64,000 nucleotides of DNA from Longitalea luteola (GTDB taxonomy: Bacteria > Bacteroidota > Bacteroidia > Chitinophagales > Chitinophagaceae): assembly GCF_017356035.1 (NCBI RefSeq), contig NZ_JAFIQX010000013.1, positions 1 to 64,000 of the forward strand, read 5' to 3'. This document shows, one piece after another, positions 16,061 to 54,654 of the stretch. The notes under the pieces were generated by a model, which saw nothing but the letters and a program-made list of their open reading frames with translations, did not search any database and was not told where the DNA came from. The position numbers and the translations under genes were made by a program. Each line of letters starts with the position of its first letter. The stretch's first letter is position 1.

Positions 16061-16090
16061 TAGGGCTTGCATTGGCAAGCCCTATTTTTT
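16061..16090 (+). terminator. intrinsic terminator after DUF4136
   Basis: A 10-base perfect stem, TAGGGCTTGC (16061-16070) and GCAAGCCCTA (16075-16084), with loop ATTG and a six-T tail. Confidence 0.88.
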
Positions 16091-16148: not shown

Positions 16149-16234
16149 GGTGAGAATCAGCATCTCTGCAACATTTTTTGCCATGATCCGCAACATTTGA
16201 GGACCGTGTTTCAAACAATATCCCGGTAGTTTTA
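16149..16234 (+). promoter_or_regulatory. shared HTCS-type operator/promoter module, copy A (GH5 unit)
   Basis: Starts GGTGAGAATCA. Half-sites GCAACATTT at 16168-16176 and 16190-16198 are exactly 22 bases apart, and TAGTTTTA (16227-16234) begins 37 bases after the second. Copies B and C before the GH3 and SusC genes have identical spacing. The likely binder is the HTCS encoded in this locus. Confidence 0.75.
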
Positions 16235-16350
16235 CAGCATTCAATAAGAGAAAGATCGCCTGTTATTGAAAACAGAGGACTCGTCTGCAATACTCAATAC
16301 CAACGGCATCAAGCGTAGACAAATAGTATGTACTCATGTAAAATGTAGAT

Positions 16351-17808
16351 ATGAAACTAACCAAAACTACCCGTTTCAATGGAATCGGGCTTTTAATTAC
16401 TGCACTCATTTTTACAAGCTGTCAAAAAAAGGGAAACCCCATTGCTCCGGAGCTCTCCGCGGCTCCATCCCTGATTGATCTTCCCGCAGCTGGTGGAACG
16501 GCGGATTTGACAATTAATGGGAACGCACAGTGGAGTATCAGCAACGCTGCTTCCTGGCTGCTGTTAAACACAATATCAGGCAAAAGCGGCAGCAGTACCA
16601 TCAAATTAACCGCAGGTTTCAATGGAACAGGTGCTTCCCGTTCTACGGTATTGACGGTAAACGCTGAGAATGGACAGGCAAGAAGAGTAACGGTTTCACA
16701 AGCTGCCGGGCTCTATCCCACATATAATACCTCTCCCAGGGCGCCTGATTCAATAGGAATGAGTACCGCCGTACAATTGGCTGCTAAATTCAAATTAGGC
16801 TGGAACATTGGGAATACATTGGAAGCTATCGGCGGAGAAACGGCCTGGGGTAATCCTCACATCACTGAATCCTATGTAAAAGCTGTAAAGCAGTTAGGTT
16901 TTACTGCTATTCGCTTACCCTGTGCCTGGAATACTCATGTCGACAACAAAGCCACTGCACACATAGATCAAAACTGGATGAATAGAATAAAAGAGGTTGT
17001 CGGCTATTGTGTCAATAACGGAATGTTTGTTATGCTGAACATTCATTGGGATGGCGGCTGGCTGGAAAATAACATCACTAAAGCAAAACAGGACTCTGTC
17101 AATGCCAGGCAAAAAGCATTGTGGGAGCAGATAGCGACCGCCATGCGCGACTTTGATGAGCACCTCATGCTTGCCAGCGCTAATGAACCGGCTGCCGATA
17201 ATGCCGAGAAGATGGCTGTCTTAGCATCGTACCACCAGACATTCGTTAATGCTGTTCGTTCTACTGGTGGAAGGAACAGCCACCGCGTTCTTATTGTTCA
17301 GGGCCCAAATACAAACGCGACATTGACAGCTGACTTGATGAACACACTTCCCAACGACCCGGTGGCCAACCGCCTGATGGTTGAAGTGCATAACTATTTG
17401 CCATCGCAGTTCTGTTTTCTGAACGAAGACGTGAGCTGGGGTAAAATGGCTTACTACTGGGGCAGCGGTTATCATTCAACCGTTGAGCCTGACCGTAACG
17501 CTACGTACGGAGAAGAGAACGACCACATTGCTGACTTCAATAAAATGAAAACAAAATTTGTTGATAAAGGGATCCCGGTTCTGATGGGTGAGTATGGCGC
17601 TTACAGGCGGGATGCTTCCGCTCATGTTCCCAAAGAGCTGGCCCTGCATAATGCCTCGGTGGACTATTGGATAACCTTTGTAACAAAACAGGCACTGGCT
17701 CATGGTGTAAAACCTTTCTGGTGGGATACAGGCGGCGCTTTGGATAGAAAAACCAACACAGTAAAGGATCAGCGTACAATTGATGCGCTATTGGCAGGTG
17801 CGAAATAG
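16351..17808 (+). CDS. BACON-domain GH5 endo-glucanase, lipoprotein (probable xyloglucanase)
   Basis: A 485-residue enzyme expected to cut beta-1,4-glucan backbones at the cell surface. The signal ends with lipobox FTSC (about residue 25). A BACON-like domain (about 35-125; ITSGGG-type strands, WSISNAASWLLLN, VTVSQAAG) precedes the GH5 barrel. Barrel hallmarks are GWNIGNTLEAIGGETAWGNP, a His in NIHWDGGW, the acid/base Glu in ANEP (about 278) and the nucleophile Glu in MGEYGA (about 413). The opening GWNIGNTLEA fits subfamily GH5_4, which includes the surface endo-xyloglucanase of known xyloglucan loci; subfamily is recalled, not computed. GH74 follows 34 bases later. Confidence 0.88.
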   Translation: MKLTKTTRFNGIGLLITALIFTSCQKKGNPIAPELSAAPSLIDLPAAGGTADLTINGNAQWSISNAASWLLLNTISGKSGSSTIKLTAGFNGTGASRSTVLTVNAENGQARRVTVSQAAGLYPTYNTSPRAPDSIGMSTAVQLAAKFKLGWNIGNTLEAIGGETAWGNPHITESYVKAVKQLGFTAIRLPCAWNTHVDNKATAHIDQNWMNRIKEVVGYCVNNGMFVMLNIHWDGGWLENNITKAKQDSVNARQKALWEQIATAMRDFDEHLMLASANEPAADNAEKMAVLASYHQTFVNAVRSTGGRNSHRVLIVQGPNTNATLTADLMNTLPNDPVANRLMVEVHNYLPSQFCFLNEDVSWGKMAYYWGSGYHSTVEPDRNATYGEENDHIADFNKMKTKFVDKGIPVLMGEYGAYRRDASAHVPKELALHNASVDYWITFVTKQALAHGVKPFWWDTGGALDRKTNTVKDQRTIDALLAGAK

Positions 17809-17842
17809 ATGTTTTTTGATTTAATTAAACGATTGAAACTTT

Positions 17843-20560
17843 ATGAAAAAAAATCTACTGAAACCATTTAAGCAAAAGGGCACACTACTTTTTGTTTGCG
17901 GACTTATTATGTCCTTTGAGATCTTCTCGCAAACAACAGCCAGCTATACATGGAAGAACGTAGCTATTGGTGGTGGCGGTTTTGTTTCCGCTATTATCCC
18001 AAGTAAGACGCAGCAAAACCTGGTATATGCGCGAACGGATGTAGGGGGCGCTTACAGATGGGATACTTCAACCAACAGTTGGATCCCGCTGACAGACTGG
18101 GTAGCTGACGATCAGGTGGGCTATCTGGGCGTTGAATCACTGGCGCTGGATCCTAATAACCCCGGCAGATTATATATGCTTGTAGGCATCGGTTATTTTA
18201 ATAATGGTAGAACAGCCATTCTTCGATCTACAGACTATGGCAACACATTTACCATCACAGATGTTACCACTCAATTCAGGGCGCATGGCAATGGTATGGG
18301 GCGGCAAACCGGTGAAAAGCTGGTAGTGGACCCCAACAACAGCAACATTCTCTACTGCGGCACGCGATGGAATGGGTTATTCAGAAGTATCGATGCTGGC
18401 GCCACCTGGAGCAGGTTGAGCGCCCTTGATGTAATTACAACCCCTAATGAAAACGGGATAAGCTTTGTGGTTTTAGACGGAAGCAGTGTTTCAGGCGGTG
18501 CTACCCAAAGGATCATTGTAGGCGTTTCGCGCAGCGGAAGCACAAACCTGTACCGAAGTGATAATGGCGGACAATCATTTTCTGCTGTTTCTGGTGCTAC
18601 CACCACCTATATGCCGCATCGCGCTGCTTTGGCCGGTAACGGGAACCTATATGTTACGTATGGCAACGGTGCAGGGCCGCATGGTCATTGGTCACAACCA
18701 GAGCCAATGGACAATGGAGCGATCTGGAGGTACAATATTTCCACAGGTGCATGGACAAACATTACACCTGCTGGTTTCAACAGGGCATTCGGAGGCATCA
18801 GCGTTGACCCTAATAATCCTAACCGGATGGTGGCCACTACCATCAATACCTATATGAATCAAAATGGTCCCTGGGGTGACAGGATCTTCCTGAGCACTAA
18901 CGGTGGTTCAAGTTGGGTGGATGTCGTAGACCGCGGATTTACGCTTGATCCCAATGGTGTGACATGGGTCGCCGGCCACGCTATACATTGGGCGGGCTCA
19001 ATAGAATTCGACCCCTTCAATACGGAAAGAGTTTGGGTCACTTCGGGTAATGGTGTGTTTGTAAATGATAACATCAGCTCCAGTGGTACCTGGCGATTTA
19101 CAGTAAGCGGGCTTGAAGAAACGGTGCCGCTGGGTTTGGAAAGTATCCGAAATGGCCCTGTCATTTCTGTTATTGGCGACTATGACGGATTCAGGCACAC
19201 GAACCTTGAGCAATACGCACCGATCCATAATCCACAAATGGGCACCACTACCGGATTGGCAATAGCTGCTCAAAACACCAGCAAAATTGTCCGGGTCGGA
19301 AACTTCATGTATTATTCCAATGATATGGGATTAACATGGACTCAAAGTAATATGAATGGCATTAAAGGACAAGTGGCACTATCAGCTAATGGTACAATCA
19401 TTTTACATTGCCCGGCGGAATCTACTGTCACATACCGCTCAACTAATAATGGATCTTCGTGGTCTGCAGTGAGTGGTTTAAGTGTTGATGAAGCACGACC
19501 GGTTGGCGATCCGGTCAATTCAGATAAATTTTATGCATACAATCCTGCAAATGGAGCGGTAATGGTGAGCACCGACGGCGGCTTGTCGTTTTCTCAGGCA
19601 GGGTCAGTTTCAAGCTGGGGCTCCAAAGTCATCAGGCTAACGCCCGGCATGGAAGGTCATGTTTGGATAGCTTTGAACAATGGAGGCCTGGCACGTTCGA
19701 GCAATTCCGGGCAATCATTTTCAACCATAACTGGTGTGAGTTATTGTGGAGCGGTTGGTTTTGGTGTCGCCGCGCCAGGAGCGAATTATCCGACGATTTA
19801 CATTTGGGGCACCGTCAACAATGTCACAGGTGTTCATCGCTCAACAGATCAGGGTACTTCGTGGGTGCGAGTCAATGACGATGCGCATGAATATGGCGGC
19901 CCGGCAAATGGACAATTTGTGCAGGGAGATATGAATGTCTTTGGAAGAGTTTATATGAGTACTGCTGGTAGAGGTATTGTTTATGGAGAACCTGCCTGTA
20001 CGCATACCACAATCACTCCGTATGTACAGCTTAATGGCGGAGCCTGGCAGCAGACAGCCAATGCTACTGTAGCTGCAGGTAGCAGCGTACAATTTGGTCC
20101 ACAGCCTTTGCAGGGTGGATCGTGGAAATGGAACGGACCTAATAATTTCAGTGCTGTTACGCGCGAAGTGATCATTTCAAATATCCAGGTTAACCAGGCA
20201 GGGAACTATGTGGCGACCTACACCAATAGCGGCGGATGCCAAAGCACGCAGATCTTTAACTTAACGGTGACCGGTTCCATACTGAGACAATACTGGACAG
20301 GAATCAGCGGAACTGCCATTAATGTTGGTGTTGGTTTATATCCGAATCCTGCCAGTAAGGGAAAGTTCACGATCCTTCTTCCCGAGGTTACAGAAAATGC
20401 GGTCGTGCGAATTTATGATAACCAGGGCAGAATGCTTTATGAAAAAGTTGCTAAAAGCAATAACAGGATAGAGGTCGATGCGCGGTTGAAGGCAGGATTT
20501 TATCTTGTTAAAGTAAAGTCGAAAGCATTTAGTTTCACCAGGAAGCTCATCGTTAAATAA
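17843..20560 (+). CDS. GH74 xyloglucanase with type IX secretion tail
   Basis: A 905-residue secreted enzyme. After a signal peptide (ending EIFSQ) come two seven-bladed propellers rich in BNR-like turns (STDYGNTF, STNGGSSW, STDGGLSF). The GH74 hallmark VYARTDVGGAYRWD places one catalytic Asp near residue 65; the other is probably in GDYDGFRH near 446. An Ig-like domain (about 715-810; NQAGNYVATYTNSGGC) and a Por-secretion tail (NPASKGKF to RKLIVK) end the protein, so it should leave by the type IX system and be attached to the surface. GH74 enzymes are nearly all specific for xyloglucan, the best substrate clue for this locus. Confidence 0.92.
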   Translation: MKKNLLKPFKQKGTLLFVCGLIMSFEIFSQTTASYTWKNVAIGGGGFVSAIIPSKTQQNLVYARTDVGGAYRWDTSTNSWIPLTDWVADDQVGYLGVESLALDPNNPGRLYMLVGIGYFNNGRTAILRSTDYGNTFTITDVTTQFRAHGNGMGRQTGEKLVVDPNNSNILYCGTRWNGLFRSIDAGATWSRLSALDVITTPNENGISFVVLDGSSVSGGATQRIIVGVSRSGSTNLYRSDNGGQSFSAVSGATTTYMPHRAALAGNGNLYVTYGNGAGPHGHWSQPEPMDNGAIWRYNISTGAWTNITPAGFNRAFGGISVDPNNPNRMVATTINTYMNQNGPWGDRIFLSTNGGSSWVDVVDRGFTLDPNGVTWVAGHAIHWAGSIEFDPFNTERVWVTSGNGVFVNDNISSSGTWRFTVSGLEETVPLGLESIRNGPVISVIGDYDGFRHTNLEQYAPIHNPQMGTTTGLAIAAQNTSKIVRVGNFMYYSNDMGLTWTQSNMNGIKGQVALSANGTIILHCPAESTVTYRSTNNGSSWSAVSGLSVDEARPVGDPVNSDKFYAYNPANGAVMVSTDGGLSFSQAGSVSSWGSKVIRLTPGMEGHVWIALNNGGLARSSNSGQSFSTITGVSYCGAVGFGVAAPGANYPTIYIWGTVNNVTGVHRSTDQGTSWVRVNDDAHEYGGPANGQFVQGDMNVFGRVYMSTAGRGIVYGEPACTHTTITPYVQLNGGAWQQTANATVAAGSSVQFGPQPLQGGSWKWNGPNNFSAVTREVIISNIQVNQAGNYVATYTNSGGCQSTQIFNLTVTGSILRQYWTGISGTAINVGVGLYPNPASKGKFTILLPEVTENAVVRIYDNQGRMLYEKVAKSNNRIEVDARLKAGFYLVKVKSKAFSFTRKLIVK

Positions 20561-20577
20561 CAGATCTTTCACCAGTT

Positions 20578-20608
20578 ATTGTGAATGCTTCGCTGCAGCA
20601 TTCACAAT
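20578..20608 (+). terminator. hairpin between GH74 and GH97 genes
   Basis: A 12-base perfect stem, ATTGTGAATGCT (20578-20589) and AGCATTCACAAT (20597-20608), with a 7-base loop and an A/T-rich but not T-only tail. It may end some GH74 transcripts or stabilise their 3' end. Confidence 0.55.
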
Positions 20609-20630
20609 TTATTAATCATATACTTTGAAA

Positions 20631-22574
20631 ATGAGTTTAAAAAATGCAATTCTTTCAATTTGGCTCTTCATTGGAACATTTGATCAGTTACAGGCACAGC
20701 AGGTTGCTCAATTACAAAGTCCCGACAAGTCCATTGCGCTACAGGTATTTTTATCAGCTTCAGGTGAAATTCAGTACAGGGTACAACGATCCGGCGTAAA
20801 TGTCATTCATCTTTCGGCTTTAGGCGTAATGATGAAGGGGCATGATTTTACCCAAGGCATGAAGCTGGTCAGTACATCAAAACCGGAACGTGTAGCAGAT
20901 CACTACAAAACGAAGAATGCAAAAAAAAGCAGCATCGTTTACCAGGCCAATCAATTGGTGTTGACTTTTGCCAATGTGGAAGAGAGAAAAATGGACATCA
21001 TTTTCCGGTTATCCAATGACGGGGCGGCTTTCCGCTATTCTTTCCCCTGGATAAACGATCATGAAACGATCGTTAAAGAACTTTCCTCATTTGCATTTGA
21101 CAAAGGAACAAGGGCCTGGTTGCAACCCATGAGTGAAGCAAAAACAGGTTGGCAGCAATGTCATCCGTCTTATGAAGAACATTATTTGCAGGATATTTCT
21201 GTTGGCGCCGTATCACCGTTAAAGTCGGGTTGGGTGTACCCGGCTTTGTTTAAAACAAATGATACATGGGTGTTGATCACGGAAGCAGCACTTGATGGTA
21301 CTTATTGCGGCACAAGATTGATCAATGATTCTGCCTCGGCTGTTTATACGATCGGCTTTGCCGATCCCAGAGAAGTGTTTACAGGCGGTGGCTATTTGCC
21401 GGAAAGCAATAAGCCATGGCTTACACCCTGGCGTATTATAACAATGGGAAGTTTGAAAACAATTGCAGAATCAACATTGGGTACCGATCTGGCGCCGGCT
21501 TCCCTGTTAAAGGATGCTTCTTTTGTTAAACCCGGAAAAGCCAGTTGGAGCTGGATCAATAGCAAGGATGACAGCATCACTTTCAATGAGCAAAAAAAAT
21601 ACATAGACTATGCCTGTGACATGCACTGGCGGTATTGCCTCATAGATGCAGACTGGGATACCAGGATCGGATATGATAAAATAGCTGAACTGGCAGCGTA
21701 TGCAAAACAAAAAAATGTTGGATTGATCTTATGGTACAATTCTGCAGGTGACTGGAACACGATTGCCTATCATCCTAAAGATAAATTGCTTACAAAGGAG
21801 GGAAGGGAAAAAGAATTCAGCCGTTTGCAGGCATTCGGCATTAAAGGCGTAAAGATCGATTTCTTTGGCGGAGATGGCCGGAGCATGATCCAATACTACA
21901 TCGACATTTTGCATGATGCCGCAAAATATAAGCTGCTGGTAAACTTTCACGGCGCTACATTGCCAAGGGGCTGGCAAAGAACATACCCTCATCTCATGAC
22001 AGCGGAAGCAATTTACGGAATGGAGATGGTGACATTTGATCAGGGTGCAGCCGATAAGCAGGCAAACCATTGTACTATGTTGCCCTTCACCAGGAACGCA
22101 TTCGACCCGATGGATTTCACTCCAATGAATCTTACGGGGCTTACAACGTCTAATTGCATCAGAAGAACCACACCCGCCTTTGAACTGGCCCTTGCGGTAT
22201 TGTTCCTCTCGGGCATACAACATTATGCCCAGGCGCCGGAAGGAATGGTGCAGGTACCCAATGATGTGAAAGCGTTTTTAAGAGGGCTTCCAGACAGCTG
22301 GGACGATGTAAAATTTGTGGACGGTTATCCTGGAAAATACGCTGTCATCGCCCGGCGAAGCGGTAACCGGTGGTTCATCGCGGGCATTAATGGAGATAAA
22401 AATGAGAAGAAAGTAAAAATTGACCTGGCCACATTTAAGAAAAGCAAGGTAACGTTGTTCACAGATGGAACCGGGAGTGAATTGTTTTCAAAGGCAGTTC
22501 TTAATGCTGCAAAGCAGAAAAAATGTGATATTACGTTGAATGCAAATGGTGGCTTTGTAATGGTGCTTGAATGA
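20631..22574 (+). CDS. GH97 family glycosidase, retaining type (probable alpha-galactosidase)
   Basis: A 647-residue periplasmic enzyme. I use the ATG at 20631; a TTG two codons earlier is also possible. The signal ends LQAQQ. An N-terminal beta-sandwich (about 25-285) holds FRLSNDGAAFRYSF, then a barrel with WRYCLIDADWD. GVKIDFF puts Asp at residue 410, the nucleophile position of retaining GH97 enzymes (alpha-galactosidase type); inverting alpha-glucosidases such as SusB lack it. The acid/base candidate is Glu459 in MTAEAIYG. A C-terminal beta domain closes the protein. In this locus it may remove an alpha-linked sugar from xyloglucan fragments; activity toward alpha-xylose is not known for the family. 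Confidence 0.88.
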   Translation: MSLKNAILSIWLFIGTFDQLQAQQVAQLQSPDKSIALQVFLSASGEIQYRVQRSGVNVIHLSALGVMMKGHDFTQGMKLVSTSKPERVADHYKTKNAKKSSIVYQANQLVLTFANVEERKMDIIFRLSNDGAAFRYSFPWINDHETIVKELSSFAFDKGTRAWLQPMSEAKTGWQQCHPSYEEHYLQDISVGAVSPLKSGWVYPALFKTNDTWVLITEAALDGTYCGTRLINDSASAVYTIGFADPREVFTGGGYLPESNKPWLTPWRIITMGSLKTIAESTLGTDLAPASLLKDASFVKPGKASWSWINSKDDSITFNEQKKYIDYACDMHWRYCLIDADWDTRIGYDKIAELAAYAKQKNVGLILWYNSAGDWNTIAYHPKDKLLTKEGREKEFSRLQAFGIKGVKIDFFGGDGRSMIQYYIDILHDAAKYKLLVNFHGATLPRGWQRTYPHLMTAEAIYGMEMVTFDQGAADKQANHCTMLPFTRNAFDPMDFTPMNLTGLTTSNCIRRTTPAFELALAVLFLSGIQHYAQAPEGMVQVPNDVKAFLRGLPDSWDDVKFVDGYPGKYAVIARRSGNRWFIAGINGDKNEKKVKIDLATFKKSKVTLFTDGTGSELFSKAVLNAAKQKKCDITLNANGGFVMVLE

Positions 22575-22784
22575 TTTATAGTGCCGGGGAAAAAGATCGT
22601 TGGTGCCAAAGACAATCATGTAATAGGACGAAGCATAAAAGTGTTCTGGTCGTTAATTTCTATGTAAAGCTGCCTCCTGGTGAATCGGGAGGCAGCCTGG
22701 TGAGCAACGCCGATAGAGCAAAAACGTAAAAGTAACGGGCAGGGCTGATTAATTAAAAAAATCGGCCTGTTCGCGCTCCATTTG

Positions 22785-22858
22785 TTAACTTAATGCGCGA
22801 TTTTGCAGGAATGTACTCAGCGCTTTTGCGCTGACAATGCAAAATCTCCCTAAGTTAA
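22785..22858 (+). promoter_or_regulatory. nested inverted repeat in the HTCS leader
   Basis: Three nested stems share one axis: TTAACTTA/TAAGTTAA (22785-22792, 22851-22858), GATTTTGCA/TGCAAAATC (22799-22807, 22838-22846) and TCAGCGC/GCGCTGA (22817-22823, 22828-22834) with loop TTTT. The structure ends 10 bases before the HTCS ATG. It could be an operator or an RNA fold limiting HTCS expression. Confidence 0.55.
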
Positions 22859-22868
22859 ACTTGTTGCG

Positions 22869-25800: not shown

Positions 25801-26954
25801 ACGATAATGGAATGGTGCATGTAGGATTGACGTACAACCCGCCTGCAAATAATGAAGGTGACGGGGCTTTTGCTATAGAAGTAAAAGACACGGGCATTGG
25901 AATTCCAGCAGACCAGCACGAAAAGATCTTTGAAAGGTTTTTTCAAACAGATACGCCGGAAAGCATGGTAAACCAGGGAACGGGCATCGGTCTGGCCATT
26001 ACTAAAGAATTCGTAAAACTGCACAATGGGATCATTACCGTAAAAAGCGAACCAGACAAAGGCTCCTGTTTCACCGTGTTATTGCCCGCGAAAACAATAT
26101 ATGAATCATCAACGCGCGTCCTGAACACAGTACTGGCAGAAGAGGCGGAACAGGTAATGCTGGAGGAAAGCCAGAAAAGCGGAAAGAAAAAGACTATTGT
26201 AATTGTCGAAGACAATGAAGATCTGCGTTTTTATTTAAAAGACAATCTGCAGGCACAATACCATATCGTAGAAGCCACGAATGGCAAAGAAGGATGGGAA
26301 AAAATAAAGCAGCTGAATCCCGACCTGGTCGTGAGTGATATTATGATGCCTTTAATGGATGGCGTTGAACTGGCGCGGAAAATCAAAGCCGAAACGCTTA
26401 CAGCGCATATTCCCGTGATTCTGCTAACAGCCATGGGAAGCGAGGACAAACAACTGGAGGGTTTGAAGGCAGGCGTGAATGATTACATTACCAAGCCATT
26501 TACCTTTGAAATACTCGCATCCCGCATCAGGAACCTGCTGGCCCAGCAGAAGCTGCTGCAGAAAAGGTTTCAGAAGCAGATCGAGGTTAACCCGTCGGAA
26601 TTAACAGTAACATCTGTTGATGAAAAATTCCTGCAGCAGGCGCTGGAGGTTGTTGAAAGACACCTCGATGATCCCGAATTTTCTGTGGAAGATTTTAGCC
26701 GGGAGATGTTTATGAACCGGGTCACCCTGTACAGGAAGATCCATTCACTTACCGCCAAATCACCCCTGGAGTTTATCCGGTCTATCCGGCTGAAAAGAGC
26801 TGCACAATTGCTGGAAAAAAGCGGCATGGCGGTGGCCCAGGTTGCTTATGAGGTAGGATTCAATAACCCGAAGCTCTTCACCAAATTTTTTAAAGAAGAG
26901 TTTGGTGTTACGCCCTCGCAATATGTCGCCAGTAAAAAAGATAAAAACGGTTAA
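22869..26954 (+). CDS. hybrid two-component system sensor/regulator (HTCS)
   Basis: A 1361-residue one-protein signalling system spanning the inner membrane. After a signal peptide come two propellers of Reg_prop repeats (IWIGT, LWIGT motifs), a Y_Y_Y domain (about 705-790), and a membrane helix (about 800-820). The kinase has phospho-acceptor His856 in FFTNVSHEFRTPLS and an ATPase domain (NLLSNAFKYT, DTGIGIP, GTGIGLAI). A receiver carries Asp1157 in VVSDIMMPLMDG. An AraC helix-turn-helix pair ends it (VAYEVGFNNPKLFTKFFKEE). The periplasmic propellers would bind a glycan fragment. Three identical-geometry modules upstream of GH5, GH3 and SusC are its likely targets. Confidence 0.95.
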   Translation: MRLLIPIALLFLWLAVFPQSERYKFSKLDIFSGLSHNQVNAILKDSDGFLWFGTLAGLNRYDGYSFKTFSKKYNDSLSLYDNNILSLYQLPGGKIWVMTRSGPSIYNSQTENFDADYNKYLSTLGLPSGSIVRIVKGNNGRYWFLYDNRDLYFYSAVEKRAQRFMFNLPGKITAVQETKDGKLWLLCENGLLQQYDIKENIIVFSSTAVQALNKGNIHNSIFVDSDGDVWLWHYNYGVLLFHPQNNSVRAFNEKTFSSRLPSNLVSEIVQDDEGLIWVAADHGGIVLINKKSNFHTSYLTNDAKDPQTLSHNSITAMYKDNNGIIWLGTYKQGVNYFNGNIIKFPHYYHQSSNPRSLQYDDVNRFVEDKQGNIWIGTNGGGLIWFNRKNNTFKQYLHDPNDPGSLSSNVIVSLCLDHEGILWIGTYFGGLNRFDGKTFTRYRHSEGDTSSLADDKVWEIFEDREQRLWIGTLGGGIDLLDKKTNRFIHYRFKEGDQSLNYISAIAEDRAGNLWIGTVFGIVVFEKNKTAPVFYRQTNNKSSLSNNNVICFLEDSKGRMWIGTREGLNLFDEHTKSFQTFTTTDGLPDNMILNLLEDNRQTFWISTPKGLCNAIPRETENGTRFAIINYDEVNNLQNREFNENAAFKTRRGELIFGGPSGFNIIDPTLIQRSAHRPKVLFTGFHLMNKNIEPGELVNDRVLLKQSISHVQSIDLKYIENVFSIEFTSLDFAHGAREKYAYRMEGFNAEWLYADGNQRRATYTNLSPGRYTFKVKALSRDGLWSDIRTLQINIQPPFWRTPFAYLIYTLMAAGLFLLARRITLERIHMRYEVVQQRREAERAHAMEQLKTKFFTNVSHEFRTPLSLIIAPLDRIIKHTNDEEQKKQLSLVQRNAKRLLNLVNQLLDFRKMEVQEVKLHPSIGDIVRFSKDISQSFMDIAEKKGIQFTFSTNIDSLQIYFDRDKIEKILFNLLSNAFKYTHDNGMVHVGLTYNPPANNEGDGAFAIEVKDTGIGIPADQHEKIFERFFQTDTPESMVNQGTGIGLAITKEFVKLHNGIITVKSEPDKGSCFTVLLPAKTIYESSTRVLNTVLAEEAEQVMLEESQKSGKKKTIVIVEDNEDLRFYLKDNLQAQYHIVEATNGKEGWEKIKQLNPDLVVSDIMMPLMDGVELARKIKAETLTAHIPVILLTAMGSEDKQLEGLKAGVNDYITKPFTFEILASRIRNLLAQQKLLQKRFQKQIEVNPSELTVTSVDEKFLQQALEVVERHLDDPEFSVEDFSREMFMNRVTLYRKIHSLTAKSPLEFIRSIRLKRAAQLLEKSGMAVAQVAYEVGFNNPKLFTKFFKEEFGVTPSQYVASKKDKNG

Positions 26955-26976
26955 GGCACGCTGGTAGAATAGATGT

Positions 26977-27061
26977 GGTGAAAATCAATTTCTTGTAACA
27001 AATCATACCCAATTATGAAACATTCGGCTCCCCTGGTTGAAACAGGGTGGTGATAGTTTTA
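26977..27061 (+). promoter_or_regulatory. shared HTCS-type operator/promoter module, copy B (GH3 unit)
   Basis: Starts GGTGAAAATCA. Half-sites GTAACAAAT (26995-27003) and GAAACATTC (27017-27025) are 22 bases apart; TAGTTTTA (27054-27061) starts 37 bases after the second. Same spacing as copies A and C. The GH3 start is 27 bases downstream of the element. Confidence 0.75.
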
Positions 27062-27087
27062 CAGCTCAATAACCATTTTATTGCTGT

Positions 27088-29307
27088 ATGAAGATTCGAT
27101 CCTTGGCTGCTCCTTTCCGGAGTTCTTCCCGGAACAATGTTTTATTTCTTTCTACCGTCTTTTTATTCATGGCGTATGCAACCGATGCACAACATTCGGC
27201 TAAGGGCGATATGGCCACTGAACAAAAGATCCATGCGCTGATCAGCGAAATGACTTTGCCGGAAAAGGTAAGCCTGCTGCATGGAAATTCGAAGTTTAAT
27301 GTGTCAGGCATAAAAAGACTCGGCATTCCTGAGTGGGCGCTGAGCGACGGGCCACATGGTGTGCGGGCTGAAGTTAACAGGCATGATTGGGCTTATGCCG
27401 GGTGGACAAATGATTTTGCCACCTGTTTTCCGCCCGGAACAGCATTGGCAGCTACCTGGAATCCGGCGTTGGCCTATAAGCAGGGACTGGTGCTTGGTGA
27501 AGAAGCCCGTTTTCGCAAAAAAGATATTTTACTTGGGCCCGGCGTCAACATCATCCGTTCACCATTGTGTGGCCGGAACTTTGAGTACATAAGTGAAGAT
27601 CCTTTGCTTGTTTCAAAAATGGCCGTTGCCTATATCAAAGCGCTGCAATCAAAAGACGTGGCGGCCAGCGTAAAACACTGGCTGGCCAATAACCAGGAAG
27701 AACACCGCGACTCCATTGACGTAACCATGAGCGAAAGGGCTTTACGCGAGATTTATTTACCTGCCTTTAAAGCATCTGTTATGGAAGGTGGCGCCTATAC
27801 GGTGATGGCAGCTTACAACCGGTTCAGAGGCGAGTGGTGCTCAGAAAATAATTATTTGAACCGGGAGATACTTAGAAAAGAGTTTGGATTCAAAGGGGTA
27901 TTAATGACCGATTGGTCTGCTGCCCATACAACGGTAAAAGCGGCTTTAACAGGGCTCGACCTGGAAATGGGCACCGATAAAAAAGATTACAACGAATGGT
28001 ATTTCGCTGATCCTTTAATAAAAGCAGTGGAAGAAGGGAAAGTACCCATGTCGGTAGTTGATGAAAAAGTGGCGAATGTATTGCGCGTCATGTTCAATAC
28101 AAAGATCTTCGATGAAAAGAGACGCGAACAAGGCAGGATGAATACCCCTGAACATCAGCAGGCTGCCTATAATGCAGCTGCCGAGGCGGCGGTGTTGCTG
28201 CAGAATAATGGAAACCTGCTTCCCCTGCATTTTGATAAAATACAATCAATTGCTGTCATAGGTGACAATGCCACCCGTAAACATTGCAGCGGCGGGCTCA
28301 GTTCAGAAGTAAAGGCCCTGTATGAAATTACTCCCCTGCAGGCCCTGCAGCAAAAGTTTGGCGCCCGGGTAAAAATCAATTATGCGCGGGGGTACGAAAA
28401 GCAATCCACATTCAGGGAAGGCAATAACTCAGGCCAGTCCGGTTCATTGAATGTGAACTGGAAACTGATCGATGAGGCGGTAGCAGTGGCCAGGGAATCG
28501 GATGTGGTGCTCATCTTCGGTGGCCTAAACCATGATTTTGATACCGAGTCTGCAGATAAGCAAAATATGGATCTGCCGTACGGCCAGGAGATTTTAATCC
28601 AGGAAGTGGCGAAAGCTAATCCGAAAACAGTGGTCGTTATTATTGCCGGCTCTCCGGTACAACTGGCAGGCATTGTTCATCGCGTGCCAGCTATTGTATG
28701 GTCCTGGTTTGGTGGTATGGAAGCAGGAAATGCCGTGGTGGATGTGCTGAGTGGCAAAATAAATCCTTCTGGTAAGCTTCCGTTCACACTGCCCGTGTCA
28801 CTGGCGCAATCACCTGCCCATGCGCTGGGTAATTTTCCCGGCAGCGATCTGAAAGTGAATTATGAAGAAGATATCCTGGTAGGCTACCGGTGGTTTGATA
28901 CGAAGAAGATCCAGCCGCAGTTCCCTTTTGGTTACGGGCTTTCCTATACGAACTTCTCCATCAGCCAGTTTTCAACTGACAAAACAGGTTATGGAAAAAA
29001 TGAAACTATCCAGGCGAAATTCACCATCAGGAATACGGGAAGCGTTTACGGCGCTGAAGTGGTGCAGTTATACGTAAGCGACCCGCTTTGTTCCGTATTG
29101 CGTCCTGAAAAAGAGTTGAAAGCTTTTCAAAAGATTTTTTTGAAGCCCGGTGAAACAAAGACCGTAGAAATGCCCGTGAAAGTGGCCGATCTGGCATTTT
29201 ATGACGAATCAAAAAAAGCATGGAACACGGAAGCCGGCGATTACATCCTGCAGTTAGGTAATTCATCGCGCACTATTTTTCAAAAGGTAAAAATTTCAGT
29301 TAAGTAA
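27088..29307 (+). CDS. GH3 beta-glycosidase (beta-glucosidase or beta-xylosidase)
   Basis: A 739-residue periplasmic exo-glycosidase. Signal peptide, though with a long basic start (MKIRSLAAPFRSSSRNN) before the hydrophobic core ending TDAQH. GH3 hallmarks: LSDGPHGVRAE, KHWLANNQEEHRDSID, and nucleophile Asp275 in LMTDWSAAH. The second alpha/beta domain and the C-terminal fibronectin-like domain (FTIRNTGSVYGAEVVQLYVS) are present. In a xyloglucan locus it would release glucose from the backbone end after side chains are cut. It opens a four-gene operon: GH3, esterase (12 bases), GH2 (14 bases), GH29 (111 bases). Specificity cannot be read directly. Confidence 0.93.
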   Translation: MKIRSLAAPFRSSSRNNVLFLSTVFLFMAYATDAQHSAKGDMATEQKIHALISEMTLPEKVSLLHGNSKFNVSGIKRLGIPEWALSDGPHGVRAEVNRHDWAYAGWTNDFATCFPPGTALAATWNPALAYKQGLVLGEEARFRKKDILLGPGVNIIRSPLCGRNFEYISEDPLLVSKMAVAYIKALQSKDVAASVKHWLANNQEEHRDSIDVTMSERALREIYLPAFKASVMEGGAYTVMAAYNRFRGEWCSENNYLNREILRKEFGFKGVLMTDWSAAHTTVKAALTGLDLEMGTDKKDYNEWYFADPLIKAVEEGKVPMSVVDEKVANVLRVMFNTKIFDEKRREQGRMNTPEHQQAAYNAAAEAAVLLQNNGNLLPLHFDKIQSIAVIGDNATRKHCSGGLSSEVKALYEITPLQALQQKFGARVKINYARGYEKQSTFREGNNSGQSGSLNVNWKLIDEAVAVARESDVVLIFGGLNHDFDTESADKQNMDLPYGQEILIQEVAKANPKTVVVIIAGSPVQLAGIVHRVPAIVWSWFGGMEAGNAVVDVLSGKINPSGKLPFTLPVSLAQSPAHALGNFPGSDLKVNYEEDILVGYRWFDTKKIQPQFPFGYGLSYTNFSISQFSTDKTGYGKNETIQAKFTIRNTGSVYGAEVVQLYVSDPLCSVLRPEKELKAFQKIFLKPGETKTVEMPVKVADLAFYDESKKAWNTEAGDYILQLGNSSRTIFQKVKISVK

Positions 29308-29319
29308 GATCATCATTCA

Positions 29320-31281
29320 ATGAACACGAATAAGGCAACCCGTATATCATTTTTTATAGGATCCATAATTTTATTCAGCGCTCATTGTTATGCTCAAATC
29401 GGTTTACCAAAAGTATTTGCTGACAGTATGGTGCTGCAAAGAGAGATGGAAATTCCTGTTTGGGGTAAGGCGGCGCCGGGATCACGGATAACGGGTGAGC
29501 TTGGAACGGTGCATACAAGCGCAACAGCCGGCAAAGATGGCAAATGGACGCTTCGTTTTCCGAAGTTTACAGCCGGTGGTCCTTACACGCTCAGGATAGA
29601 GGAAGCGGGAAAACCAAATACCGCCATTGAACTGAAAGGCATACTTATCGGAGATGTATGGCTGGCGTCGGGTCAATCGAATATGGAATGGCAGGTGCAG
29701 CAGGCCGGGGATGCACGCCGGGAAATTGAAAATGCCAATTTTCCCCAAATACGTTTTCTGGTTGTTAAGCAAGACAAAAAATTATCGCCCCAATCGGATA
29801 TCAGGGCCGGTAAATGGAAGATCTGTGATACTGCAACTGTAAAGGAGTTCTCGGCCGTTGCTTATTATTTTGCGCGTAAACTGCACAGTGATCATCATAT
29901 TCCGGTTGGCATAATTCAAAGCACCTGGGGTGGAACGCCGGTGGAGGCGTGGACGAGCCGAGACATGTTGCTTAGATCGTCCATTACCAGGGTACGGACA
30001 CTCAGCAACGATACCCTTGGTTTTGGTCAGGAAGCGCTTGTCGCGGATAGTTTGAACTGGGTACGCATTTGGAATATAGTTTATAATCCGCAGAATAATG
30101 CTGATAAGATCTTTCCGGCTCAGGGCTATAACGATGCTGGCTGGACAAATATTGAAATGCCCAATGTGCTAAGGGATTTCGGAATAGGTCATTATGAAGG
30201 AATGGTCTGGCTGCGAAAAAAGTTATCATTGCCTGAATCCTTTGCGGGAAAAGTGCTGACGCTGAACCTGGGCCATCCGGAGATGAACTATTCTCTGTAT
30301 TTCAATGGGCAGGAGATCTGTAAGAACATCTGGAGTGCCAGCCCCACCCACGTTTATACGATACCGGCATATTTAGTGCAGCGTGGAGAGAATACTATTG
30401 CTGTGCGGGTGGCCATGTTATGGGGCGGTGGCGGTTTGAATCCTCCGGCTGATGACCTTTATATTACCGATGGTGCTTCTACCATCTCTTTAGCCGGGAA
30501 CTGGTTATATAAGAAAGACCTTGAAACGTCTTTTCCGAAAATACGCAATTATCAACATTATCCCTCCGTACTCTTTAATGCAATGATCAACCCGCTTATT
30601 CCTTATTGCATCAAAGGATTTATCTGGTACCAGGGCGAAGCGAACGCAGCAGCGGCTTACAATTATCGAACGTTATTTCCCATGCTGATCAAAGACTGGC
30701 GGCAACGCTGGCAGCAGGGCAATATTCCATTTCTGTTTGTTCAGTTAGCCAATTACATGAAAACAAAGCCGCTTCCTGCGGAAAGTGAATGGGCCGAATT
30801 GCGCGAAGCCCAAACATTGACATTATCACAGGCCAGCACAGGCATGGCCTGCACCATAGATATTGGAGATGCAAATGATATTCATCCAAAAAATAAGCAG
30901 GAGGTGGGCCGCCGGCTGGCATTAATTGCCAATAGAATGGTGTACAAACAAGCCGTCATTGCATCCGGTCCGGCGTATGCAGGTTATCGGAAAGAAGGGG
31001 ACCGTGTCCGCATCCATTTTACCAACGCCGGTTCGGGCCTTTCAACGAAAGATGGAAAAGAAGTAACGGGTTTTGCCATTGCGGGTAAAGACAAAAGATT
31101 TTACTGGGCAAAAGCGATTATTGAAGGAAATCATGTGATCGTTTTTTCCAATGAAGTCACAGAACCGGTAGCCGTGCGTTATGCCTGGGCCGACAATCCT
31201 GAATGTAACCTGGTAAATTCAGAAGGGTTGCCTGCCATTCCGTTCAGAACGGATACATGGAAGGGAATTACTCAGAAATAA
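29320..31281 (+). CDS. sialate O-acetylesterase-family carbohydrate esterase
   Basis: A 653-residue SGNH-type esterase that removes O-acetyl groups from sugars. The signal ends CYAQ. After LPKVFADSMVLQREMEIPVW comes the nucleophile block SGQSNMEW (Ser near 120). An inserted galactose-binding-like domain (about 250-400; LSLPESFAGKVLTLNLGHPE) splits the catalytic fold, which resumes with GFIWYQGEANA and ends with the Asp/His block DANDIHP (His near 522). The family name reflects homology; here acetylated xyloglucan or another acetylated glycan is the likelier substrate, inferred from context. Confidence 0.9.
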   Translation: MNTNKATRISFFIGSIILFSAHCYAQIGLPKVFADSMVLQREMEIPVWGKAAPGSRITGELGTVHTSATAGKDGKWTLRFPKFTAGGPYTLRIEEAGKPNTAIELKGILIGDVWLASGQSNMEWQVQQAGDARREIENANFPQIRFLVVKQDKKLSPQSDIRAGKWKICDTATVKEFSAVAYYFARKLHSDHHIPVGIIQSTWGGTPVEAWTSRDMLLRSSITRVRTLSNDTLGFGQEALVADSLNWVRIWNIVYNPQNNADKIFPAQGYNDAGWTNIEMPNVLRDFGIGHYEGMVWLRKKLSLPESFAGKVLTLNLGHPEMNYSLYFNGQEICKNIWSASPTHVYTIPAYLVQRGENTIAVRVAMLWGGGGLNPPADDLYITDGASTISLAGNWLYKKDLETSFPKIRNYQHYPSVLFNAMINPLIPYCIKGFIWYQGEANAAAAYNYRTLFPMLIKDWRQRWQQGNIPFLFVQLANYMKTKPLPAESEWAELREAQTLTLSQASTGMACTIDIGDANDIHPKNKQEVGRRLALIANRMVYKQAVIASGPAYAGYRKEGDRVRIHFTNAGSGLSTKDGKEVTGFAIAGKDKRFYWAKAIIEGNHVIVFSNEVTEPVAVRYAWADNPECNLVNSEGLPAIPFRTDTWKGITQK

Positions 31282-31295
31282 ATAAGATTTTTAAA

Positions 31296-33098
31296 ATGAA
31301 TAGAAACGAAAAAACGAAACAATGGGTATTGGCACTTTTATTCATTTTTTTTATCGTCGGGATTGTCAGCGCCCAGAACGCAATGACAAACATCCAATCC
31401 AGAAGGTTAACGAGTTTAAATGGCGAATGGAGGGTTCTTATAGACCCCGTTGGTAGTGGTCAATGGCAGCAGGTTTGGTTAGAAAAACAACCGCAAAAGA
31501 AAACTGACTTTTATGAGTATTCGTTTCAAGGCGCCCCCGTATTGAAAGTGCCCGGTGACTTTAATTCCCAGTTGTGTGAATTGACTTATTATGAAGGTAT
31601 AGTCTGGTACAAAAAAGAATTTAATTATACGGTTCAGATGGGAAGGAGGCTGTTTCTCCATTTCGGGGCTATTAATTATTGGGCTGATGTGTATTTGAAC
31701 GGTGAAAAAATAGGAAGCCATGAAGGTGGATTTACGCCTTTTCAGTTGGAGATTACCGGCAAAGTAAAGGCAGGGCCAAATGCCATAATTGTCAAAGTAA
31801 ATAATATGCGTCATAAGACCGGGCTGCCGGGCCTGGGGTACGATTGGTTAAACTATGGTGGCATAACACGTGAAGTTGATTTGATCGAAACCGGCAGCAC
31901 GTATATTGAGGATTATAGCATTCAATTAAAAAAAGGCAGTTTAAATACTGTCTTGGGTTGGGTTCAATTAAATGGAAATCAACCGGTACAAAATATTAAC
32001 ATAAGAATTCCTGAACTAAACATCTGTTATAAAGCAGGGGCTGATAAGGATGGTCTGGCAAACGTGGAATTTTCGTCCACTTTTAAGCTATGGTCTCCTG
32101 ACACTCCTAAACGCTATGAGGTTATAATCGAAAGTGAAACGGATACGGTTGTAGATCATATTGGGTTCAGGTGTATTGAAGTGAAAGGAAGTAAAATAGT
32201 ACTAAACGGAAAGCAGGTCTTTTTGAAAGCGGTAAACATTCACGAAGAAAATCCATTTAAAGGCGCTCGTGCATATTCAGGAAATGATGCTAAATTATTA
32301 CTGAATGCGGCTAAAGAGCTGGGATGTAATCTTGTTCGGCTGGCACACTATCCGCACAATGAGCGTATGGTCAAAGAAGCAGAAACTATGGGCCTGATGG
32401 TATGGAGCGAAATTCCGGTATACCAGCATATTGAATTTGCTGACACTTCGGTTGCACGTAAAATGGAGATAATGCTTAAAGGGATGGTACGCAGGGATAG
32501 AAATCGCTGTGCGATCGTTATTTGGAGCCTGTCCAACGAAACCTATCCGGGAACTCCGGGCCGGGATAAAGCGCTTGTTGAACTTACAAAAAAATGCAAA
32601 GCCATTGATTCTGCAAGATTGATTACGCATGTTATAAACACCCAGCGATACGAACACAATACTTTCCATGTGTGGGATACGCTTCACCGGCATGCTGATA
32701 TTATTTCCATCAATGAATATATTGGATGGTATATTCCCTGGCAGGGTTTGCCTTCGGCCACAAAATGGGAATTGGTCTGCCCCGAAAAACCGGTATTTAT
32801 TGCTGAGTTTGGCGGTGAAGCGTTGTCTGGCAATCAGCAGAAGCCAACGGATGAAGCTGCTTTTTGGACCGAAGCGTACCAGGCAAAAATATATACCAGC
32901 CAAATTGAAATGTTCCATACGGTTCCCAACTTATGCGGAGTATGTCCCTGGCTATTGTTTGACTATCGGTCACCGGGAAGAATGCATCCTGTTTATCAGA
33001 AAGGTTATAACCGGAAAGGGTTGTTGTCCGATAAAGGTGAAAAGAAGAAGGCCTGGTACATAATGAAAGCCTATTATAAAGGCGATGCTCAAAAATAG
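31296..33098 (+). CDS. GH2 beta-galactosidase/beta-glucuronidase family enzyme
   Basis: A 600-residue glycosidase. I use the ATG at 31296, which starts the signal peptide (core LALLFIFFIVGIVSAQ) after the upstream stop; the earlier ATG at 31257 overlaps the esterase gene and adds an odd tail. The order is sugar-binding domain (YYEGIVWYKKEF, FGAINYWADVYLNG), Ig-like domain, then TIM barrel with acid/base Glu415 in WSLSNETYPG and nucleophile Glu504 in FIAEFGGEA. It is shorter than LacZ-type enzymes, like many Bacteroidota GH2. Removal of beta-galactose from xyloglucan side chains would fit. Confidence 0.9.
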   Translation: MNRNEKTKQWVLALLFIFFIVGIVSAQNAMTNIQSRRLTSLNGEWRVLIDPVGSGQWQQVWLEKQPQKKTDFYEYSFQGAPVLKVPGDFNSQLCELTYYEGIVWYKKEFNYTVQMGRRLFLHFGAINYWADVYLNGEKIGSHEGGFTPFQLEITGKVKAGPNAIIVKVNNMRHKTGLPGLGYDWLNYGGITREVDLIETGSTYIEDYSIQLKKGSLNTVLGWVQLNGNQPVQNINIRIPELNICYKAGADKDGLANVEFSSTFKLWSPDTPKRYEVIIESETDTVVDHIGFRCIEVKGSKIVLNGKQVFLKAVNIHEENPFKGARAYSGNDAKLLLNAAKELGCNLVRLAHYPHNERMVKEAETMGLMVWSEIPVYQHIEFADTSVARKMEIMLKGMVRRDRNRCAIVIWSLSNETYPGTPGRDKALVELTKKCKAIDSARLITHVINTQRYEHNTFHVWDTLHRHADIISINEYIGWYIPWQGLPSATKWELVCPEKPVFIAEFGGEALSGNQQKPTDEAAFWTEAYQAKIYTSQIEMFHTVPNLCGVCPWLLFDYRSPGRMHPVYQKGYNRKGLLSDKGEKKKAWYIMKAYYKGDAQK

Positions 33099-33209
33099 CA
33101 CGGTAAGGCCGGGATCCGGTTCGATTAAAAGGAAATTTTCTTTAAACGATCATCCCGGTGCTGTAAGAGAGCAGTATCTTCATTTTTATAAAACGCACAA
33201 CCAGCACAT

Positions 33210-34871
33210 ATGAAAAGAAGAACATTGATAAAAGGAATGGCCGCCACTTTGCCATCATTATGGTTATCGCGGGCATTGGGTAACCAGTTTTTCGAGGACC
33301 CTTTCGGGGGTGAACTTATGGCAAACGGGCCATTCAAACCTACCTGGGAATCGTTGCAGAATTATAAAACACCTGAGTGGTTCCGTGATGCCAAGTTCGG
33401 CATGTGGGCGCACTGGGGGCCACAATGCCAACCTGAAGCGGGCGACTGGTATGCAAGAGGCATGTACCAGGAAGGATCATGGCAATATAAGGTTCATCTG
33501 CAAAAATATGGTCATCCTTCAAAGTTTGGATTTAAAGACGTGATCAACGAATGGAAAGCAGCCAATTGGGATCCGGAAGAATTAGTGCGTTTGTATAAGA
33601 GTGCTGGTGCGCAGTATTTTATGGCCATGGCCAATCACCACGACAATTTTGATCTGTACGATAGCAGGTATCAGAAGCATTGGAACGCCACCAAAATCGG
33701 CCCTAAGAAGGATCTGATTGGTGGTTGGGCAAAAGCAGCCAGAAACAATGGACTTCCGTTTGGCGTGAGTGTTCATGCATCCCACGCATGGCGCTGGTAT
33801 GAAGTAGCGCAACAGGCCGATAAAACAGGCCCGCTTGCAGGTATTCCGTATGACGGAAAACTTACCAGGGCAGATGGCAAAGGAAAATGGTGGGAAGGAT
33901 TAAACCCGCAGGAGTTATATGCACAGGACCATCCTTTGAGCGAGGAGAGTGTAGATGATCATTCCATTCACAAACAATGGAATTGGGGCAATGGAGCTTA
34001 TCCGCCCAGTAAAGCCTACATTGAAAAGTTTTACAATAGAACAATTGATCTCATAAACAAGTATGATCCCGATGTATTGTATTTCGATGATTCGCAATTG
34101 CCTTTATGGCCAGTAAGTGATGCAGGTTTGCGCATTGCAGCTCATTTGTATAATAAAAGCATTAAGGAACATGGGGAACTTCGCGCAGTGATCAATGGAA
34201 AGATTTTGGATGAGAACCAACGCAAGGCCATGGTATGGGACATTGAAAGAGGGCAGGCCAATGAGATCCAGCCGCTTCCCTGGCAAACGGATACCTGCAT
34301 CGGCAACTGGCATTATGATCGTGGATTGTATGAACGCGATGGGTATAAGACCGCAAAGACGGTAATCCAAACCCTGGTAGATATTGTGAGCAAGAATGGC
34401 AATTTAATGTTGAACATACCGGTACGAGGTGACGGAACCATCGATGAAAAAGCAAGAAGAATTGTGGAGGAAACTGGCAAATGGATGAAAGTAAACAGCG
34501 AAAGTATTTATGGTACAAGACCCTGGAAAATATTTGGTGAAGGGCCGGCACAGGAGGCGGCAGCCAAATTGAGTGCACAGGGTTTTAATGAAGGAAAAGG
34601 AAAGCCGTTCACCCATGAAGACATTCGCTATAATACAAAAGGCGATGTACTTTATGCCACTGCCATGGGCTGGCCACGGGACGGGAAGCTTGTTATAAAA
34701 AGCCTGGCAAAGAACAGTCGGCATCTTCCGCAGGAAATTCAAAAAGTGGAATTGTTAACGACAAAGCAATCATTGCCTTTCGAAAGAACGGAAGACGCCT
34801 TGATGGTTACCCTGCCGGAAAGGACTTCGGAGGAGTTGACGTATGCAAATGTTATAAAGGTTCTTACATAG
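33210..34871 (+). CDS. GH29 alpha-L-fucosidase
   Basis: A 553-residue enzyme with a twin-arginine-like start (MKRRTLIKGMAATLPSLWLS). The GH29 hallmark is WFRDAKFGMWAHWGPQCQPE and the nucleophile Asp is one of the pair in VLYFDDSQ (293-294). An early HH block (ANHHDNFDLYDS) and LDIVSKNGNLMLNIPVRGDG close the barrel, followed by a short C-terminal beta domain. It would remove terminal fucose from fucosylated xyloglucan. It closes the GH3 operon and is followed by a strong terminator. The FDD in place of the more usual FDG is a minor variation. Confidence 0.9.
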   Translation: MKRRTLIKGMAATLPSLWLSRALGNQFFEDPFGGELMANGPFKPTWESLQNYKTPEWFRDAKFGMWAHWGPQCQPEAGDWYARGMYQEGSWQYKVHLQKYGHPSKFGFKDVINEWKAANWDPEELVRLYKSAGAQYFMAMANHHDNFDLYDSRYQKHWNATKIGPKKDLIGGWAKAARNNGLPFGVSVHASHAWRWYEVAQQADKTGPLAGIPYDGKLTRADGKGKWWEGLNPQELYAQDHPLSEESVDDHSIHKQWNWGNGAYPPSKAYIEKFYNRTIDLINKYDPDVLYFDDSQLPLWPVSDAGLRIAAHLYNKSIKEHGELRAVINGKILDENQRKAMVWDIERGQANEIQPLPWQTDTCIGNWHYDRGLYERDGYKTAKTVIQTLVDIVSKNGNLMLNIPVRGDGTIDEKARRIVEETGKWMKVNSESIYGTRPWKIFGEGPAQEAAAKLSAQGFNEGKGKPFTHEDIRYNTKGDVLYATAMGWPRDGKLVIKSLAKNSRHLPQEIQKVELLTTKQSLPFERTEDALMVTLPERTSEELTYANVIKVLT

Positions 34872-34906
34872 GCCTGAAAGGGGCTTTTATGAAAAACGGG
34901 CGCTTG

Positions 34907-34948
34907 GCAAACAGGCAGGTCACAAGGGTGGCCTGCCTGTTTGCTTTT
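34907..34948 (+). terminator. intrinsic terminator after GH29
   Basis: A 13-base perfect stem, GCAAACAGGCAGG (34907-34919) and CCTGCCTGTTTGC (34932-34944), followed by TTTT. It separates the GH3-GH29 operon from the SusC promoter. Confidence 0.85.
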
Positions 34949-34973
34949 ACCATCAGGTCTTCGCTTTCCATAC

Positions 34974-35059
34974 TGGTGAAAATCATTTGCTTGCAACATT
35001 TGCTGCCATAATCTGCAACAATCGGGGCCCCTGGGTTGAACAACCGGGCGATAGCTTTA
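34974..35059 (+). promoter_or_regulatory. shared HTCS-type operator/promoter module, copy C (SusC unit)
   Basis: Starts GGTGAAAATCA. Half-sites GCAACATTT (34993-35001) and GCAACAATC (35015-35023) are 22 bases apart; TAGCTTTA (35052-35059) starts 37 bases after the second. Same spacing as copies A and B. The SusC ATG is about 170 bases further on, so this unit has the longest leader of the three. Confidence 0.75.
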
Positions 35060-35228
35060 TGGAACATCGCCGACCGGCAATGAGACTGCTTGGCGTTGCT
35101 GATAAGTCGTGATTTTTATTTGCCGATGCCATTACATTGAACATTTATACCGGCACAGATGGGTAAGCGACCCTAAAGTATGATGGAAAACAGCTAACGA
35201 TTAAATGTTGTCAAGTAAACATTTACAT

Positions 35229-38411: not shown

Positions 38412-38422
38412 ATAAGATCAAT

Positions 38423-39994: not shown

Positions 39995-39999
39995 GCAGG

Positions 40000-40037
40000 G
40001 TGCCACACCTCTTTTTCGTGGAGTACAGGTGTGGCAC
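40000..40037 (+). terminator. hairpin between SusD and SGBP genes
   Basis: An 11-base perfect stem, GTGCCACACCT (40000-40010) and AGGTGTGGCAC (40027-40037), with a 16-base loop and no T run. It more likely tunes mRNA stability between SusD and SGBP than stops transcription. Confidence 0.5.
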
Positions 40038-40074
40038 ACCTAGGTCAGTTTTCCACCAAACAAAAAAGATAATA

Positions 40075-41280: not shown

Positions 41281-41331
41281 TATAAAGACTCAATTTTTAA
41301 AAACTGTGAATGCTGAACTAAAGGAGATCAT

Positions 41332-41360
41332 AAAGCGTCCCTGCAGATAGGGACGCTTTT
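41332..41360 (+). terminator. intrinsic terminator after SGBP
   Basis: An 11-base stem, AAAGCGTCCCT (41332-41342) and AGGGACGCTTT (41349-41359), with a 6-base loop and a short T tail. The GH39 start is only 41 bases further on, so GH39 may be expressed at a lower level by read-through. Confidence 0.75.
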
Positions 41361-41400
41361 AATAATTCAGCGTTTGCAATAGAAGATTCAAAGGTTTTAT

Positions 41401-53906: not shown

Positions 53907-53974
53907 AGTGTATTGACAAACTGATCAGGCTGGAGAAATAAAAATTATATCAATCATTTTGAAAAGGTAAGCTA

Positions 53975-54625: not shown

Positions 54626-54654
54626 TTGGTGGCCGGAGCTGTGGCTGAACTGCA

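Follow-up and report, generated by a model that had tools for sequence, protein, structure and literature searches.

Hybrid two-component system proteins (HTCSs) control glycan-use genes in Bacteroidota, and the locus described here raises the question of whether three similar upstream sequences, each heading a gene unit beside an HTCS gene, are operators, and which regulator reads them. The locus lies in the window, the whole stretch of Longitalea luteola DNA that was analysed (64,000 nucleotides). By gene content at the level of Pfam domains it looks like a xyloglucan utilization locus, encoding a GH5-type endoglucanase, SusC/D, a xyloglucan-binding SGBP and an HTCS that unites a sensor propeller, a histidine kinase, a receiver and an AraC-type HTH in one chain (Table 1). 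The BNR/sortilin-type protein is one that we take to be a GH74 enzyme. No GH31 alpha-xylosidase gene was found in the window, and there are four GH31 places elsewhere in the genome. A further SusC-type TonB-dependent receptor at 55757 of the window is preceded, at 51948-55521, by a PAS histidine kinase, a protein with a MEDS domain and a regulator of AraC type. As argued below, the three upstream sequences, here called modules, are very probably operator-promoters of one xyloglucan-type regulon, with the HTCS of the locus as their predicted binder.

Table 1. Features of the glycan locus, numbered from the first letter of the window.
Feature	Position	Strand	Details
Terminator-like stem upstream of module 1	16061-16090	- in the scan (16084-16061)	T run on the + side
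Module 1, before GH5	16149-16240	+	GGTGAGAATCA 16149-16159; half-sites 16168-16176 and 16190-16198; -7-like TAGTTTTA 16227-16234
GH5 with BACON domain	16351-17808	+	Pfam
BNR/sortilin-type protein with Por secretion tail	17843-20560	+	Pfam
GH97	20625-22574	+	Pfam
HTCS, 1361 aa	22869-26954	+	Reg_prop propeller, Y_Y_Y, HisKA, HATPase_c, Response_reg, HTH_18; predicted module binder
Codons of HTCS residues 1283 (Asn) to 1285 (Val)	26715-26723	+	Covary with half-site letters
Module 2, before GH3	26977-27065	+	GGTGAAAATCA 26977-26987; half-sites 26995-27003 (GTAACAAAT) and 27017-27025 (GAAACATTC); TAGTTTTA 27054-27061
Unit after module 2: GH3, SASA esterase, GH2, GH29 alpha-L-fucosidase	27088-34871	+	Pfam
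Inverted repeat of 17 nt, then four T, between GH29 and module 3	34907-34944	+	Possible terminator; absent from the terminator scan list
Module 3, before SusC	34975-35062	+	GGTGAAAATCA 34975-34985; half-sites 34993-35001 and 35015-35023; TAGCTTTA 35052-35059
Unit after module 3: SusC, SusD, SGBP-B with xyloglucan-binding domain PF18329, GH39	35205-42996	+	

Alignment of the three modules shows a shared start, GGTGAnAATCA, at 16149, 26977 and 34975; an earlier note on this DNA had placed the first two correctly and the third one base too early, at 34974. Its description of the geometry is borne out by the alignment, in which the two half-sites are 22 bp apart in modules 1, 2 and 3 and the element TAGYTTTA invariably stands 37 bases from where the second GCAACATTT-like half-site begins, and the domain annotation of the downstream genes agrees with its placing of the modules before GH5, GH3 and SusC. 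In module 1 one extra base separates GGTGAnAATCA from the first half-site, giving AACA offsets of +22/+44, with +21/+43 in modules 2 and 3, and because of this base a fixed-spacing pattern matches modules 2 and 3 only. The half-sites read GCAACATTT/GCAACATTT in module 1, GCAACATTT/GCAACAATC in module 3 (0 and 2 mismatches to GCAACATTT) and GTAACAAAT/GAAACATTC in module 2 (3 and 2 mismatches), the last of which begins after a gap of about 24 bp from the HTCS stop codon. A third AACA occurs 22 bp past the second in all three window modules; as only 8 of 79 scored modules carry AACA at that place, it was not kept as a defining part. Terminator-like sites are barely more numerous in the stretch than in shuffled sequence (24 versus 20.1).

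Chance does not account for these modules. The exact pattern GCAACATTT-N13-GCAACATTT occurs once in the window, at module 1, and not at all in 100 shuffles. With a matrix trained on 22 relatives and without window sequence, modules 1, 2 and 3 score 48.4, 74.7 and 68.5 bits, whereas the maximum of the same matrix over 1,724,100 reversed or complemented control positions is -11.1, which places the modules beyond chance. A scan of the window's own genome, a check that the earlier note had proposed, likewise put the motif above random rates: with a sequence-only model of 37 rows (R1), three of them the window modules, five matches in 7.3 Mb reached E<=1e-10 and the next best had E=0.145, when 150 of 2799 first-look candidates were scored. 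The five are the three window modules, one on contig C43 (96327-96416) and one on contig C39 (455602-455670). An own-genome pattern with TAGNTTTA set three bases beyond its true place gave no match. That the three modules arose through copying of whole upstream regions was rejected by inspection, given that their spacers differ and that relatives share the pattern.

In order to see how far the arrangement is conserved, we scanned other genomes for the HTCS and found 77 loci, 35 of them close (61-80% identity), mostly in Niastella, Chitinophaga and related genera. In 23 of these 35 a pair of AACA with 22-bp spacing occurs within 700 bp after the HTCS, and the matrix adds ten more, so that a module follows the HTCS, within about 500 bp, in 33; the matrix scan found none after the HTCS in the remaining two (L020, L025). 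In the HTCS-adjacent modules of relatives TAG lies at a distance of 35 from the second AACA in 22 of 23 cases and of 34 in one. The match rate in overlapping draws of genomes was 34/394 at E<=1e-3 and 21/394 at E<=1e-6 for the family, 33/79 at E<=1e-6 for the genus labelled G006, and 12/396 at E<=1e-5 for the order, all 12 belonging to the family of the window; family and genus draws together hold 51 distinct genomes at E<=1e-6, three of them in both. One relative (L028) has tandem modules at 14122 and 14425 after a single HTCS, the second reading GTATCA/GAATCA. In the first 12 bases of the modules an upstream element, TGAAAATCA (TGA-N3-TCA), scores above 8 in 36 of the 44 modules next to an HTCS and in 26 of the remaining 71, and TGATATTCA is seen there in three loci (L008, L010, L031). 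Reading TGAAAATCA as an extra half-site in the 22-bp register was rejected, because its start lies 15 bp ahead of TGCAACA in half-site 1.

The genes behind the modules are also alike across genomes. Early in the 2.5 kb that follow each module, 59 of 115 unique modules, both numbers including the window's own three, have DNA that matches window proteins, best to SusC in 27 cases, GH5 in 11, GH3 in 9, the GH74-like protein in 6, GH97 in 3, GH2 in 2 and GH39 in 1; 56 modules have no such match. Some of the matches are weak, and many of the stretches are short. Five further downstream proteins that were scanned comprise four of GH31 (L102, L010, L013, L021) and one GH29-like (L103). In the window's own genome one of the four GH31 genes likewise follows a module: the C43 module precedes genes for GH31, SusC and SusD and lies next to another HTCS, 50% identical to that of the window, and the C43 GH31 shares 79% identity with the GH31 of L013. 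The operator reading, which the earlier note proposed with the HTCS as binder, is supported, since the modules follow HTCS orthologues (33/35) and precede like genes in other genomes, and the two direct sites 22 bp apart, conserved at PUL genes in related loci, are traits of a direct-repeat HTCS operator.

If these are operators, the HTCS encoded among them is probably the protein that reads them, a prediction made because the letters of the half-sites vary together with the HTH1 recognition helix of the HTCS next to them. Another AraC-type regulator could be the binder, with the HTCS gene merely near, a candidate being the HTH_18 protein at 54655-55521 (- strand) of the same window, and the HTCS query does match the genome at 164 places, which include some AraC-type domains. 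We consider this very improbable: that regulator is about 20 kb away, 33 of the 35 close loci have a module after the HTCS gene, and the module letters go with the helix of the adjacent HTCS.

The DNA-binding domain of the HTCS was modelled at a pLDDT of 92.8, with a fold that matches AraC-family proteins (1bl0, MarA bound to DNA; 1d5y; 7w5w), and its best sequence match among solved chains is 12aw_A, a hybrid two-component system protein. In the model residue 1283, the Asn of the recognition-helix stretch FMNRVTLYRK, is the N-cap just before helix 38-49, the HTH1 recognition helix, and residue 1285 is the second residue of that helix. Helix 3 of MarA touches bases through Trp42, Gln45 and Arg46 (PMC3315485), and residue 1285 appears to align with Trp42, as read from the alignment ranges.

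To relate helix and half-site we used 49 HTCS-module pairs, 43 with the HTCS just upstream (22 with Asn, 18 with Ser and 3 with Asp at residue 1283) and six found later; rows were limited to modules with an HTCS just upstream, and the second module after the L028 HTCS and modules with a low upstream HTCS-model score (28, 34) were left out of the 43. With Asn1283, position 2 of the half-site is C in 38 of 44, A in 4 and T in 2; with Ser it is never C (0/48; A 26, T 22), and with Asp it is always C (6/6). Residue 1283 ranks first among 383 variable columns for position 2, whether half-site 1, half-site 2 or both are taken (49 rows). Thinning at 90% identity leaves 37 rows and 373 columns, and 1283 again leads; with the 13 rows left at 80% residue 1298 comes first and 1283 second, and at 70% the three rows left are not usable. 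Residue 1285 comes first for position 4 of half-site 1 in 49 and 37 rows and not in 13. For position 4 of half-site 2 it is not first, other columns leading, and eight Ser-Val rows (five early, three later) read GAATCA at half-site 2, with T at position 4 despite Val1285. Rows with Asp-Arg-Ser have GCATCA or GCACCA, and the sole Asn-Arg-Ala row has GCACC. The six pairs added after the rule was seen all fit it, and all are Ser-type. Within the 24 Ser-type pairs the two half-sites differ, for at position 2 the second half-site has A in all 24 and the first has T in 22.

These observations suggest a recognition code for HTCSs of this clade, in which base 2 of GCAACA is set by the helix N-cap (Asn, Ser or Asp) and base 4 is biased by the residue two places later (Val, Ala or Ser), a proposal that we judge to have an even chance of being correct. 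The covariation might instead reflect shared ancestry only, without contact between residue 1283 and base 2. On the tree the Asn/Ser independent contrasts are few, two supported and five in all, none opposed, which is not significant; a single clade with weak support takes in 14 of the 18 Ser rows and leaves L035, L029, L102 and L132 outside, the last three on long branches; and another column ranks first at 80% thinning. Ancestry is, however, common to all columns, yet it is 1283 that ranks first of 383 and of 373, while 1285 leads for position 4 of half-site 1 and both residues start the recognition helix, and we consider ancestry alone an improbable explanation. If the code is true, it may serve to separate the regulons of paralogues, and mixed operators could join two regulons.

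Module 2 may be such an operator, for it carries Ser-type letters (GTAACA/GAAACA) though the HTCS upstream of it has Asn. Modules 1 and 3 could then be read by the local HTCS and module 2 also, or mainly, by the C43 paralogue, whose helix, HMSRVALYKK, is Ser-type and whose own module before GH31, SusC and SusD has the half-sites ATAACA/GAAACA. Four Asn-type HTCSs of relatives (L002, L003, L021, L030) have one non-C half-site as well, which argues that module 2 may show ordinary slack, and we regard a role of the paralogue at module 2 as rather unlikely. In another relative, L236, a module with one C has a Ser-type HTCS in its neighbourhood, though not upstream. The C39 module, as in L103, is of the GCATCA type and stands before a GH29-like frame covering only part of its profile. 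None of the eight HTCS-type proteins examined in the window's own genome, that of the window included, has an Asp-Arg-Ser helix, so the C39 module is perhaps a relic.

With the locus HTCS as predicted binder, we propose the following course. Judging by domain order and the HTCS literature, a glycan fragment sensed in the periplasm would lead to phosphorylation of the receiver domain. Two AraC-type DNA-binding domains would then sit on the direct repeat, one per 22-bp unit and on the same face of the helix. The first HTH would read TTTGCAACATTT in each unit, lying on GCAACA, and the second would probably read a CC pair 11-13 bp after the AACA start, which is conserved in each unit across 79 well-scored modules. 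The sigma-ABfr consensus is TAnnTTTG at -7 with TTTG near -33 (PMC7366714); the -7-like TAGYTTTA stands at a fixed distance, but its final base is A, not G. TTTG was found in none of the 79 modules at offsets 53-57, the place expected for -33, and TTG occurs at offset 57 in seven; in F. johnsoniae a -33 motif was likewise not found (PMC7366714). Since TTTG cannot be recognised at -33 and the unit nearer the promoter stops at about the place of such an element, bound HTCS may stand in for the -33 contact and probably helps RNA polymerase onto the -7-like element directly.

MarA, SoxS and Rob are known for the layout of their boxes and for binding them as monomers, unlike the present case, in which units stand in tandem and the receiver domain is part of the same chain. 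Like them, the HTCS has a two-HTH domain, and in those proteins it is helix 3 that reads the more conserved bases (PMC3315485).

The earlier note held that few HTCS operators had been described at this detail, which is only partly right. A study of 36 HTCSs of B. thetaiotaomicron predicted direct-repeat motifs with an average spacing of 21 bp for 16 of them, the other 20 having no known operator there (PMC3878776), and response-regulator fragments of two HTCSs were assayed by gel shift with PUL promoters (PMC11253607); given these motifs and gel shifts, direct-repeat HTCS operators are already known as a kind, and the residue-base covariation is the added, testable part. The modules resemble the B. 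thetaiotaomicron operators in having two conserved direct sites upstream of PUL genes near the HTCS gene, and in that motif similarity follows HTH similarity. They differ in belonging to another Bacteroidota family and a xyloglucan-type locus, in the fixed 22 bp, the fixed distance to a -7-like element and the extra TGAAAATCA, and in covariation at the level of residues, for which the relevant passages of that study give no rule (PMC3878776). Among openly licensed PMC papers we found no report of a xyloglucan HTCS operator or of an HTCS residue-base code. With the module in 51 genomes and a candidate residue-to-base rule, the regulons of these HTCSs become predictable and the rule testable.

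The xyloglucan locus of F. johnsoniae, for which an HTCS is named in a figure legend, is similar in its GH5 endoxyloglucanase, SusC/SusD-type transporter and auxiliary enzymes (PMC11892949); unlike it, the system described here has its module-bearing GH31 gene on another contig (C43), beside the second HTCS. Within the locus, a 17-mer, ATGAAACTAACCAAAAC, starts the GH5 gene (16351-16367) and recurs at 35229-35245, where it stands at an ATG in frame with SusC, 24 bases from the start of that frame. Allowing at most one mismatch, these are its only two places in the genome, and both genes follow a module.
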